DNA from: Gammaproteobacteria bacterium
GTDB taxonomy: Bacteria; Pseudomonadota; Gammaproteobacteria; SURF-13
Direction of reading: 5' to 3'
Assembly (NCBI GenBank): GCA_030680605.1
Contig: JAUXUQ010000010.1
Location: forward strand, 62,001 to 126,000
DNA: 64,000 nucleotides
Both the position numbers and the translations under genes were made by a program. This document shows positions 220 to 27,763 of the stretch, one piece after another (within the stretch, counting starts at the first letter, position 1; every line of letters begins with the position of its first letter). Below the pieces are notes generated by a model, which saw nothing but the letters and a program-made list of their open reading frames with translations, was not told the origin of the DNA and did not search any database.

Positions 220-1317
220 CTAGAAGTCGTGGTTGATGCCGACTGAAAACGTAGACAAATCCAGCCCGTTGGTGCTGTTCTTCACTGCGCCGCTGCTACC
301 GCCCGTGCCCAGGCCATACTTCGCACCGCTTTCGTTATCGGTGCGGGCATACAGGGCGTAGACGCTGGTGCGTTTGGAGAGCGCGTGATCCAGACCCAGC
401 ACATACCAGTCCGCGCCGGTATCTCCGCCGGTGTCGTTGTCGCCTGCCCTGGCGTAAGCAATCTTGAGGGTGTTGGCGGCCATCTTGTGTGCCAAGCCGA
501 GATACCAGGCGTTCCGATCCATCAAAGTCGCCGCGCCATCTTGAGATAAATCCTCGTATACGAAATTGATCTTGGTATTATCGTGATTGAAGGTGTAGCC
601 GAGGCTGAGCGTCCATGCGTGGGTGTCGTAAATATGGGCACCCGTGGGCGGCGTGGTGGACGAATAAATAGAGCCGCTCAAGGTAGCCTCTTTTCTGTGC
701 TGCTCATAGGCCAGACTGGCATACAAAGGGCCGTTTTCGTACACGCCGGCCAAACTGTAGCGGTCACGGTTGTTCGCGGCATCCTCGTCCACGCGGTAGG
801 CGGCCAAAAACTGGAAACCGTTCATCTTCGGGCTCCAGTAGTTGATGCTGCTCGGCTCGCGCTCATTGAACGGCGTGCTCGCGCCGCTCACGTTGCCGAT
901 GATGGCGTTAAAGTCACCCATGCTGTCGCTCCAGATGTCGAGCTTTCCGGTGGCGAGCTTGTAGGCATTGTCGGTTACACCCAAAACCAGTGTGCCGAAG
1001 CCGCCCGCGAGGCCTAGGTAGCTGTTGCGTGGGGTGCCCAATAGCAAGCTATCACTGCCATCCATCGTAACCAGGGTTTCCATCTGAAAGACCGCCTTCA
1101 ACCCATTGCCTAAATCTTCCACCCCCTTGAAACCCAGACGCGAACTGTTGCTGGAAACGTTGCTGGCGCTAGCCGTGCCGTTGTCTGTGATGTCCACGGA
1201 GGCGCGCGCCTTGCCGTAAACCTTGATGTTGTCCTCTGCCTGCGCCGCTGCGGCGGTGACTGCCAGTGCTGCGGCCAGTGAGATGGAAATAAATTTTCCG
1301 TATGTGTGCAGTTCCAT
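220..1317 (-). CDS. Outer-membrane porin (Gram-negative general porin family)
   Basis: This encodes a trimeric-type outer-membrane beta-barrel for passive diffusion of small solutes. The protein has a signal peptide (MELHTYGKF, then a hydrophobic core ending AAAAQA), then a mature start EDNIKVYGKARASVD typical of Porin_4/OmpC-like proteins. It has repeated amphipathic strands, PRNSYLGLAG and INYWSPKMNGF motifs, and a C-terminal phenylalanine (INHDF) that acts as the BAM recognition signal. Length is about 365 residues, normal for the family. The start at 1317 was chosen because GGGAGAGG lies about 6 nt upstream; an in-frame ATG at 1332 and a longer open frame to 1407 lack this. It is divergent from the EAL gene and has its own terminator. 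Confidence 0.93.
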   Translation of the reverse strand: MELHTYGKFISISLAAALAVTAAAAQAEDNIKVYGKARASVDITDNGTASASNVSSNSSRLGFKGVEDLGNGLKAVFQMETLVTMDGSDSLLLGTPRNSYLGLAGGFGTLVLGVTDNAYKLATGKLDIWSDSMGDFNAIIGNVSGASTPFNEREPSSINYWSPKMNGFQFLAAYRVDEDAANNRDRYSLAGVYENGPLYASLAYEQHRKEATLSGSIYSSTTPPTGAHIYDTHAWTLSLGYTFNHDNTKINFVYEDLSQDGAATLMDRNAWYLGLAHKMAANTLKIAYARAGDNDTGGDTGADWYVLGLDHALSKRTSVYALYARTDNESGAKYGLGTGGSSGAVKNSTNGLDLSTFSVGINHDF

Positions 1318-19995: not shown

Positions 19996-20742
19996 ATGCA
20001 AACTCTTCCAAAAAAACTTAAGAAAGAACCGCTGATAGATGCCGTGTTTGAGGTGCGTTTCACTAGCGCATTTCCGGCCGGAGGTGTATTGCCAGGCTTG
20101 TTATTTGGAAATCTTGATGGCGACAAGAAGATTGAGCAGCTTCCACTGTCGCAGTTACCCCAAGTTATGCGGGATGAAGATCCGAACTTGCGGTTTGCGC
20201 CATTGAGCCGACTCGACTGGGGGCAATTTTATATCAACATTGGCGACCGTAGTGTTTCAGTTGGTTTTAAATATCCGTACCCTGGCTGGAATAGTTTCAA
20301 GCCAGCAATTATTAAGGTAATGGACGCTCTGAAAGGTGCAAATGTTATAAAGTCTGTAGATCGGTACTCGCTCAAGTATATTGACTTGCTTCCCGCAACT
20401 GACCTTCGAGAACAGGTGTCACTCGTAAATTTTGACGTAACTCTTGCTGGGCATAAATTAAAAGATGAGGCATTTCAAATTCGGTTAGACATTCCGAGAG
20501 GTGACTTCATTCATGTGGTTCAGATGGTGTCATCTGCAACAGCCACCCTGCATACTGGCGAGTCCAAGCAAGGGCTGATTGTTGATGTTGACACTATTGC
20601 CAACCAACAAGGCGAGACATTAGAAGGTTTGCTTAGCGAATTTTCTGACAAGTTGGAGACAATACATACAGCAAATAAGAAAGTATTTTTTGATTGCCTA
20701 AAGCCAGAAACCATCAAGGCACTAGAGCCAGAATATGTATGA
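19996..20742 (+). CDS. TIGR04255-like sporadically distributed protein
   Basis: About 248 residues, beginning MQTLPKKLKKEPLIDAVFEV. The opening KxPLxxAxxEVRF, the central RYSLKYIDLL and a C-terminal DTIANQQGETLEGLLSEFSDKLETIH with FFDCLKPETI match my recollection of the TIGR04255 family, whose function is unknown and whose distribution is patchy. The longer frame from 19918 is less likely; the family start is near 19996. No signal peptide or membrane segment. GC is about 40-42 % in sampled lines, against 60-68 % in ubiB, a sign of transfer. Its 3' end overlaps the next gene by 8 bp. Confidence 0.7.
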   Translation: MQTLPKKLKKEPLIDAVFEVRFTSAFPAGGVLPGLLFGNLDGDKKIEQLPLSQLPQVMRDEDPNLRFAPLSRLDWGQFYINIGDRSVSVGFKYPYPGWNSFKPAIIKVMDALKGANVIKSVDRYSLKYIDLLPATDLREQVSLVNFDVTLAGHKLKDEAFQIRLDIPRGDFIHVVQMVSSATATLHTGESKQGLIVDVDTIANQQGETLEGLLSEFSDKLETIHTANKKVFFDCLKPETIKALEPEYV

Positions 20743-21256
20743 TATTTACTACAACCAAGCATTAAGTAAATTTAATCCAGTATTGATGGCGGGAATGCTT
20801 GCTATGCACTCTTTGCCAGTGATTGCACAGCCAGACATGGAAGAACAGTGCAGCAAAAGCATATTGGATGCTGCTTACCGCGCATCAACAAATTCTGCGA
20901 CATATTCACACTTAAGCAGCATCTTCACAGGTAAGTACAGCTACGCTACCGCGAAATTTTCGCAGCCATGGATGACATCCGAGTTGGCGGATTTTCTCCT
21001 TCGTTCCTCACAAGTTTCTTTGGAGGGGTTGGATTATTTGCTAGTGGCAATACATGATACTTATGGCGACGTGCAAATAGATACCGTCATGCATACTGAT
21101 CCTGAAGAGGGGTGGATCAAACCAGTTTTTATTGTTCATTCTGGGATAGAAGATTTTGATAATCTTATGGATATTGAGGATAGTTTTTTTGTTAAAGCAA
21201 CTAGTGACCCGACCCTTCGTGCAATACTGCCTTTTGTCGTAGTGTCGCAGGCCTAA
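20735..21256 (+). CDS. Hypothetical protein, middle gene of the AT-rich island
   Basis: 173-residue protein I do not recognise. It starts inside the end of the TIGR04255-like gene and its TAA directly abuts the ATG of the HEPN gene, so the three are translationally linked. It is acidic, with DIEDSFFVKATSDPTLRAILPFVVV at the end and a predicted mixed alpha/beta character. The first 30 residues have a weak hydrophobic stretch (VLMAGMLAMHSLPVIA), not a clear signal peptide. A later in-frame Met at codon 18 or 21 could be the true start. Local GC falls to about 30 % near 21121-21180. Confidence 0.65.
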   Translation: MYDIYYNQALSKFNPVLMAGMLAMHSLPVIAQPDMEEQCSKSILDAAYRASTNSATYSHLSSIFTGKYSYATAKFSQPWMTSELADFLLRSSQVSLEGLDYLLVAIHDTYGDVQIDTVMHTDPEEGWIKPVFIVHSGIEDFDNLMDIEDSFFVKATSDPTLRAILPFVVVSQA

Positions 21257-21610
21257 ATGGCTTTCAACCCTGTCGATTTCTATCACCTCGCTGGCTGGTT
21301 GTTTGCGCAGCAAAATCCGCACGACGAAGCCCGTGCTCGGGCCGTCATCTCCAAAGCGTATTATGGCGCTTTTCTTGAGGCAAGAAATAAGGCTGGTATC
21401 ACCGACAAGTCACCCGGCGTACACAAAAAAGTCCGTGCCCATTATTACTGTAAGGGCCATTTGGCACTTGCAAATCGGCTCGATGATTCTAGGATTAAGC
21501 GCAATGGCGCTGACTATGATACGGCTCTAACCATAACATCAAGGGATTCCGGAAAGGCTCTTAAACTGGCAAAGAGAATACTGCAAGACCTTGGGGTTGC
21601 TCTAGTGTAA
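21257..21610 (+). CDS. HEPN-domain protein
   Basis: 117-residue alpha-helical protein with the features of HEPN domains: an N-terminal helix RARAVISKAYYGAFLEARN (the AYYGAF motif) and a later RIKRNGADYD (residues 79-88), equivalent to the RNxADY motif of this fold. HEPN proteins are often RNases in toxin-antitoxin or phage-defence systems, or nucleotidyltransferase partners. A canonical RxxxxH is not obvious, so catalytic activity is uncertain. The ATG immediately follows the stop of the previous gene. No nucleotidyltransferase (MNT) gene is adjacent. Confidence 0.75.
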   Translation: MAFNPVDFYHLAGWLFAQQNPHDEARARAVISKAYYGAFLEARNKAGITDKSPGVHKKVRAHYYCKGHLALANRLDDSRIKRNGADYDTALTITSRDSGKALKLAKRILQDLGVALV

Positions 21611-21727: not shown

Positions 21728-22285
21728 CTATTGATGTGGCCGCTGCAAATCAGCCTCCACCGCATCCCGCTTTTCCTTCCCCGACAATAACTCAATCAGT
21801 TCCAGCGCAAAATCCATCGCCGTGCCGGGGCCGCGCGAGGTGATGACCTTTCCGTCTTTGACCACAGGATTATTTTCAATCGTGATGTTGGGTGCGGCGA
21901 GTTTTTCCAGCGTGCCGGGAAAGCCGGTGGCGCGTTTGCCGTCGAGCAGGCCCGCGTGCGCGAGCACGGTGGGTGCGGCGCAGATGGCGGCGGTGAATTT
22001 TCCGCCGTGCGCCATTTTTTCCAGCAGGGAATGGATGCGGGCGTCGTTGTTGAGGTTGTCGCTACCGGGCTGGCCGCCGGGCAGGACTACCATGTCGTAG
22101 TCGAGCTTCAGCGCTTCATCGAGCGTGGTGTCGGCCAGCAGCCGGGTGCCACGGCTGGCCACTACCGGCTCGGCGTCGAGGCCGGCGGTAACAACGCTGA
22201 TGCCCGCGCGGCGCAGCAGGTCGATGAGGGTGACGGCCTCGAGTTCTTCACAGCCCTGGGCGAGAGGAACCAGTACGCGAGGCAT
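21728..22285 (-). CDS. DJ-1/PfpI family protein (YajL-like)
   Basis: 185-residue DJ-1 superfamily protein. MPRVLVPLAQGCEELEAVTLIDLLRRAGI opens with the conserved Glu; the nucleophile elbow is FTAAICAAPTVLAHAG with the reactive Cys; VVLPGGQPGSDNL and ATGFPGTLEKL are family blocks. YajL-type proteins protect proteins and nucleotides from glyoxals and oxidation and have chaperone activity, though the deglycase activity is disputed. It lies 48 bp downstream of ctpA on the same strand and may be its last operon member. Confidence 0.9.
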   Translation of the reverse strand: MPRVLVPLAQGCEELEAVTLIDLLRRAGISVVTAGLDAEPVVASRGTRLLADTTLDEALKLDYDMVVLPGGQPGSDNLNNDARIHSLLEKMAHGGKFTAAICAAPTVLAHAGLLDGKRATGFPGTLEKLAAPNITIENNPVVKDGKVITSRGPGTAMDFALELIELLSGKEKRDAVEADLQRPHQ

Positions 22286-27277: not shown

Positions 27278-27763
27278 ATGGCCGAAAAAACAAACCCGCA
27301 AAAACCCGCCGCTGCAGATACCGCGCAGTTTACCATCCAGAAAGTGTTCGTTAAGGACCTCTCGTTCGAGGCGCCGAATACACCGCAGATATTCAATGAA
27401 CAGTGGGCGCCCCACATTGACCTCCATCTGCAGAGCAAGGCGATCAAGCACGAGGAAGCGGTGCACGAGGTCGTGCTGACTGTAACCGTGACCGCCAAGT
27501 TGGACGATACGACTGCGTTCCTGGCCGAGGTACAGCAGGCCGGTATTTTCACCATCCAGGGCTTTGCGCCGGATGACCTGGCGCGCATGCTGGGTAGCTT
27601 CTGCCCCAACCTCCTGTTTCCATTCGCGCGCGAAGCCGTCGCCGACATCGTCGCCAAGGGTGGCTTCCCGCAGCTGCTGCTCTCGCCGGTCAACTTCGAT
27701 GCCGTTTACGCGCATATGCAGCAGCAGAAGCAGCAGGGCACGGACAAGGAAGTTGAGCACTAG
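27278..27763 (+). CDS. secB: Protein-export chaperone SecB
   Basis: Tetrameric cytosolic chaperone that keeps preproteins unfolded and passes them to SecA. 161 residues; FTIQKVFVKDLSFEAPNTPQIF, DLHLQSKAI, EVVLTVTVTAK and LLFPFAREAVADIVAKGGFPQLLLSPVNFDAVY are the SecB core. Acidic tail suited to SecA binding. AGGAAAGG lies upstream of the ATG. Confidence 0.97.
   Translation: MAEKTNPQKPAAADTAQFTIQKVFVKDLSFEAPNTPQIFNEQWAPHIDLHLQSKAIKHEEAVHEVVLTVTVTAKLDDTTAFLAEVQQAGIFTIQGFAPDDLARMLGSFCPNLLFPFAREAVADIVAKGGFPQLLLSPVNFDAVYAHMQQQKQQGTDKEVEH

Follow-up and report, generated by a model that had tools for sequence, protein, structure and literature searches.

A horizontally acquired operon encoding a TIGR04255-family protein, an orphan protein and an HEPN-T protein as a probable three-part toxin–antitoxin module

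The window analysed here is a stretch of 64,000 nucleotides from a gammaproteobacterial contig (JAUXUQ010000010.1). Three plus-strand genes take up the interval that separates the ubiB stop (19875) from a yajL-like gene on the minus strand (its stop ends at 21728), and they encode a TIGR04255-family protein (P1), an orphan protein (P2) and an HEPN-type protein (P3). The P1 and P2 genes overlap by 8 bp and the TAA stop of P2 is followed by the ATG of P3 without any gap. An original prediction made from the sequence had described the coupling, which was confirmed from the coordinates, and the flanking genes, which are as claimed. We propose that the operon is probably a horizontally acquired tripartite toxin–antitoxin module: P3 would act as toxin, P2 would be its antitoxin, and P1 would serve P2 as a dedicated guardian. 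The features on which the argument draws are listed with the basis of each assignment in brackets.

19996-20742, plus strand: P1, TIGR04255-family protein of 248 amino acids, proposed antitoxin guardian or sensor (NCBIfam profile, AlphaFold2 model)
20735-20742, plus strand: 8-nt stop/start overlap ATGNNTRR, translational coupling of P1 and P2 (sequence)
20735-21256, plus strand: P2, orphan protein of 173 amino acids, proposed antitoxin (position, behaviour of the N- and C-termini)
20780-20824, plus strand: residues 16-30 of P2, a hydrophobic segment at the N-terminal end (VLMAGMLAMHSLPVI) that P1 would recognise (N-terminal comparison)
21038-21187, plus strand: P2 residues 102-151, proposed toxin-binding region, like the partners of other HEPN genes (shuffles)
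21257-21610, plus strand: P3, HEPN-T (PF05168-type) protein of 117 amino acids, proposed toxin (relatives, profile match)
21422-21424, plus strand: codon of P3 His56, candidate alternative active-site His (alignment; PMC3710099)
21500-21517, plus strand: P3 motif R82-N-G-A-D86-Y87, where Rx4-6H is expected (alignment)

Results

Base composition and origin of the operon

The GC content of the module is 44.6 % (43.9 % for P1, 42.3 % for P2 and 49.2 % for P3) against 59.5 % for the window, and no other stretch of equal length within the window is lower (z = -4.6). At third codon positions (GC3) the value is about 0.40, compared with 0.81 in ubiB. AT-rich DNA in GC-rich surroundings is what had been predicted, although the range then given (30-42 %) was somewhat too low. 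P2 and P3 are each present in one copy in the host genome, as is the P1 family, and P2 and P3 were not found in the relatives of the host that were searched.

The relatives do not carry the set at the ubiB junction. In another genus of the same family (G004) the site is empty, with the stops of ubiB and yajL 5 bp apart, and this rules out a conserved host operon. In a sibling species of the same genus (G001; L133, G001:C44) the end of ubiB is followed by a different AT-rich open reading frame fragment and an IS3-type transposase, and in G003 other genes occupy the junction. As the site is empty in G004 and differs in content between G001 and G003, foreign DNA enters it repeatedly, and within the genus the ubiB junction is apparently a hot spot for insertions. 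The foreign composition together with the empty site in a related genus bears out the earlier claim that the module is horizontally acquired. A TIR label given by eye to a 118-amino-acid fragment at the junction of the sibling genome was dropped, as the fragment has no Pfam match and no convincing PADLOC match.

P1 is a full-length TIGR04255 protein

P1 matches the NCBIfam profile TIGR04255 with 97.5 bits (cut-off 30, E = 1.1e-27) over positions 1-251 of 252 and so is a full-length member of this family, the assignment made in the original prediction. The family (sporadTIGR04255) was previously without an assigned function, and the genomic role set out below is proposed here. It was named in no paper found, subscription papers and preprints lying outside the search, so an earlier description is possible. 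P1 has no Pfam match, including none to the SecB family PF02556. Its AlphaFold2 model (predicted local distance difference test score, pLDDT, 91) consists of two beta-rich halves, each closing with a long helix. Foldseek found no good match in the PDB, the best being AdoMetDC and TBP (template modelling score 0.26-0.31), a weak likeness of the pseudo-repeat type, and no internal duplication was detected by profile. Kinship with SecB, prompted by the two beta-beta-beta-beta-helix halves of the model, was rejected: hhalign against a SecB of the same bacterial family gave a probability of 0.1 %, and the top 50 PDB matches from Foldseek contain no SecB. The secB gene of the host, the ordinary SecB of every searched member of that bacterial family, lies at 27314-27727, about 6 kb downstream of the module, a closeness that is probably coincidental.

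The nearest relative of P1 (at L027) is 57 % identical, and on the TIGR04255 tree P1 sits among proteins linked to third genes with an SNSCDI motif (see below). At L027 itself (700-1150, minus strand), where the closest counterpart of the module lies, the first and middle genes are intact, but foreign DNA cuts off the SNSCDI third gene about 70 codons in. Single-protein viral scans with P1 and with P3 gave no match. In phage Dobby (L036, 1108-1854) the annotation of the TIGR04255 gene does not start until 1483, so that its first half is absent, and the related phage record OQ658368 has no gene annotated at this position.

P3 belongs to the HEPN-T group

The original prediction proposed an HEPN protein as the last gene and a profile search as the check. 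P3 itself has no Pfam match at E <= 1 and its sole PADLOC match, to the HEPN model PDC-M05B, is weak (1e-4), but its relatives pass the PF05168 cut-off and the HEPN assignment stands on them. Plasmid proteins with an HEPN annotation share 38 % identity with P3 (2e-8), one of them being among those relatives, and a profile of P3 with six relatives matches the solved HEPN protein 9xbd (3e-8). Judged by its relatives, P3 is a member of the HEPN-T (PF05168) group. In an alignment of 10 HEPN relatives from several phyla H56, R82, D86 and Y87 are invariant, and P3 has the HEPN-T pattern of an R..DY motif with an alternative conserved His upstream. As in HEPN-T proteins and the abortive-infection protein AbiV, for which an alternative active site has been proposed, the motif Arg is kept, the His is replaced and a second conserved His lies upstream (PMC3710099). 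By this pattern P3 may be an RNase. AbiV is listed without partner genes (PMC3710099), whereas P3 is accompanied by P1 and P2.

Coupled genes that end with one for a small HEPN protein are common to this operon, to HEPN-MNT (HepT-MntA) systems and to the PADLOC candidate PDC-M05. The operon differs from HEPN-MNT in having two other proteins in place of a nucleotidyltransferase (GSx10DxD) and in that P3 has no RX4HXY. With P1 a TIGR04255 protein and P2 matching no family, the earlier statement that this is not an HEPN-MNT pair was correct.

P2 has two parts that behave differently

P2 has no Pfam, NCBIfam or PADLOC match, a direct search of genomes, plasmids, phages and viral contigs found no relatives, and its AlphaFold2 model is unreliable (pLDDT 47) and was not used as a fold prediction. 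The first 70 residues match the middle proteins of the nearest TIGR04255 relatives (pairwise E = 9e-5; none of 2521 shuffles equal). The C-terminus does not match these same SNSCDI-type middle proteins (374 of 1772 shuffles equal). P2 thus has a bipartite trend, its N-terminus travelling with P1 and its C-terminus appearing to travel with the toxin. Residues 102-151 align with the conserved part of the partners of HEPN genes, for which a profile was built from nine of them (7 of 4000 shuffles equal); the resemblance is suggestive only. Most middle proteins have a hydrophobic N-terminal stretch in a similar place, which in P2 is VLMAGMLAMHSLPVI.

A middle protein from a different locus bears on the role of P2. 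At L019, where the third gene encodes YhaV, the C-terminal end of the middle protein resembles the YhaV antitoxin PrlF. The Pfam match (E = 0.0058, profile positions 46-90 of 99) is below the curated cut-off, yet it is to the cognate family among 24,736. BLASTP against a PrlF gave 6e-5, and a small home-made PrlF profile gave a weaker match (31 of 4000 shuffles equal). The locus is thus like YhaV-PrlF in its toxin and in the C-terminus of its middle protein, and unlike it in that a hydrophobic segment replaces the N-terminal domain of PrlF and a TIGR04255 gene is added. The window differs again in having an HEPN gene. Because of the PrlF-like middle protein at this locus, the two-gene HEPN pairs described below and the bipartite behaviour of the P2 termini, we propose that P2 is an antitoxin.

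The trio recurs at unrelated loci

A TIGR04255 gene, a middle gene and an HEPN gene in the same order and tightly spaced were found at four unrelated loci besides the window: in a Chloroflexota metagenome-assembled genome (L078), on plasmid pTB1 of Thermus brockianus (L124), on a viral contig (L100, where the HEPN gene has no Pfam match) and in Sulfurimonas phage SNW-1 (L038). Three of these came from HEPN searches and are biased for counting, though unbiased for co-occurrence. As TIGR04255 is present in only 34 of the 369 genomes of the class that were searched, its pairing with HEPN is not due to chance, and the trio at four other unrelated loci together with the ATGNNTRR type of overlap between first and middle genes, which 22 of the 24 listed loci share, argues the same for the module as a whole. 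Recurrence at varied loci in phages, plasmids and other phyla, a survey proposed with the original prediction, was thereby found. In cyanobacteria and on a single viral contig, other HEPN relatives are the second gene of a pair, preceded by a partner gene, and have no TIGR04255 gene. The pTB1 HEPN gene (L124, 4001-4393) is missing from the gene table of the plasmid collection though it is past the PF05168 cut-off.

The third gene is exchanged between toxin families

Third genes were read downstream of about 50 TIGR04255 genes, the usual order being TIGR04255, a small and mostly overlapping middle gene and a variable third gene. Among the third genes are members of established toxin families by Pfam match: YhaV (6.8e-46), PIN at two loci (1.4e-8 and 3.2e-6), Fic (1.1e-5) and PemK/MazF (1.1e-18). 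The commonest belong to two unnamed families, one with the SNSCDI motif and one of about 150 amino acids. On the TIGR04255 tree, which was made by a quick method and has several long branches, there are at least 14 switches in the label of the third gene, and three or more separate events brought HEPN together with TIGR04255. The trio claimed in the original prediction is real, but its reading as a module of its own is refined: it appears to be one member of a wider platform of TIGR04255, middle protein and toxin, with HEPN one of several exchangeable toxins and P3 an HEPN-T protein lacking Rx4-6H.

The SNSCDI protein (about 200 amino acids, no Pfam or NCBIfam match) is encoded at L036 (2187-2786), L167 (10108-10722) and many viral loci and is a candidate new toxin family. 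A relationship to MazF, suggested by a GD...SN likeness, was unsupported (hhalign probability 1.7 %). At seven loci (L015, L016, L018, L031, L032, L044 and L068) TIGR04255 is followed by a middle protein of 165-200 amino acids with a WDGYGA-type motif and a protein of about 150 amino acids. Some middle proteins of this class match the C-terminal part of the PADLOC candidate PDC-M32A (best 2.4e-9); none of the TIGR04255 proteins match that candidate.

The group to which P1 belongs is common in temperate phages and prophages and is also carried on plasmids. In complete Escherichia coli genomes the trio with SNSCDI is present in 92 of 5,426 (about 1.7 %), and the one example read lies in a lambdoid prophage between the antiterminator gene Q and the holin gene, on the opposite strand, which is a typical site for accessory (moron-type) genes. 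Such prophage sites often carry superinfection or defence genes. Two other loci have candidate defence genes close by: at L090 these are weak PglZ-like and methylase genes, at L124 cas6 and VapC. This context hints at a possible role of the module in anti-phage defence.

Discussion

We favour the interpretation that the operon is a three-part toxin–antitoxin module. P3 would be the toxin, with RNA or translation as its probable target. The C-terminal part of P2 would bind it, and the hydrophobic N-terminal segment of P2 would make this antitoxin dependent on P1. Because of that N-terminal stretch and of the conserved coupling of the first two genes, P1 is proposed to take up nascent P2 with the help of the 8-nt translational coupling, and would then keep P2 stable and usable. 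Should P1 be drawn off, for example by a phage protein, or the module be lost, P2 would fail and P3 would arrest the cell. P1 and the N-terminus of P2 would together be a reusable unit, which relatives join to PIN, YhaV, MazF, Fic and SNSCDI toxins. Growth arrest by P3 and its neutralisation by P2 are suggested by the toxin families in the third slot and by the PrlF-like middle protein. To this extent there is support for the idea, put forward in the original prediction, of an HEPN protein held in check by the first two proteins, with neutralisation itself being what we infer.

The closest parallel is with toxin–antitoxin–chaperone (TAC) systems, in which a SecB-like chaperone acts on a C-terminal extension of the antitoxin that can be transferred from one toxin family to another and is functional at the N-terminus too (PMC5105189). 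The toxin of CmdTAC is freed when the chaperone is drawn off by a phage capsid protein (PMC11618068). Like these systems (M. tuberculosis HigBA-SecB(TA) and CmdTAC) the module has three coupled genes and a putative antitoxin extension to which the third protein seems to be linked (PMC5105189, PMC11618068), and the toxin (here HEPN, PIN, YhaV, PemK or Fic) is swapped while the guardian unit is kept. Unlike them it has a TIGR04255 protein with no detectable relation to SecB, its gene order is guardian, antitoxin, toxin, and the proposed addictive part is at the N-terminus of the antitoxin and not at the C-terminus. As P1 was not related to SecB in any test run, the module is not a member of the TAC group and is TAC-like by analogy.

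Several points weigh against our interpretation. P1 resembles no known chaperone. By the shuffles P2 is no more than marginally like the HEPN partners (about 0.2 %), and no reliable model of its fold was obtained. The hydrophobic segment is not universal, since a strong one is absent from the middle protein linked to MazF and from the HEPN-linked ones at L078 and L038. The SNSCDI protein, the commonest third gene, has no known activity. The classical HEPN RNase motif Rx4-6H is absent from P3, which has R82-NGAD-Y87, where the Arg is not followed by a His. For class II HEPN proteins, which are without the RNase motif, no toxin function has been demonstrated (PMC7641770).

Of the alternatives, it is quite possible that the set is purely an addiction (stabilisation) module of phages and plasmids with no role in defence. 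Plasmid and prophage carriage and the toxin–antitoxin design are what such a module would have. The moron-type prophage sites, such as the Q/holin interval with the genes on the opposite strand, and the one locus adjoining weak PglZ-like and methylase genes point the other way, though both are compatible with addiction all the same. P1 might otherwise be a sensor or inhibitor of the P2-P3 complex, or of P3 directly, with binding of a phage product freeing the toxin. P1 is always the first gene and is large relative to P2, and its weak Foldseek matches are to a TBP/AdoMetDC-like pseudo-repeat and not to a chaperone. We think this rather unlikely, however, as the N-terminus of P2 co-varies with P1 while P3 is exchanged and as the coupled overlap joins P1 to P2. 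The hydrophobic N-terminus could also be a membrane or export signal, making P2 a membrane-tethered antitoxin in a system that senses envelope damage or phage entry, and several middle proteins do have N-termini like signal peptides (e.g. GPALALALCSISAIADTP). The segments are short, many have no basic n-region and some middle proteins are without such a segment, and we consider this improbable. Least convincing, and very unlikely in our judgement, is that P3 is a catalytically inactive, nucleotide-binding HEPN protein in a regulatory or metabolic operon, which the missing Rx4-6H and the class II proteins that also lack it (PMC7641770) would allow, but the invariance of His56, R82, D86 and Y87 across phyla fits the alternative site of PMC3710099 and true toxins fill the same operon slot elsewhere.

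Returning to the guardian interpretation, there is a fair chance that P1 represents a new class of antitoxin guardian. A broader proposal, which we put forward tentatively, is that TIGR04255 proteins are a second class of antitoxin guards, unrelated to SecB, and act as a universal sensor paired with whichever toxin is available (HEPN, PIN, YhaV, MazF, Fic or SNSCDI), that abortive infection follows when phage proteins compete for this sensor, and that SNSCDI is a new toxin family. If so, the uncharacterised TIGR04255 family would become the marker of a modular three-part toxin–antitoxin platform, one that combines with five or more established toxin families and is spread over phages, plasmids and many phyla, and the guarding of antitoxins would not be limited to SecB. 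Predictions on toxin exchange and possible phage sensing would follow, and the E. coli prophage example would ease their testing.
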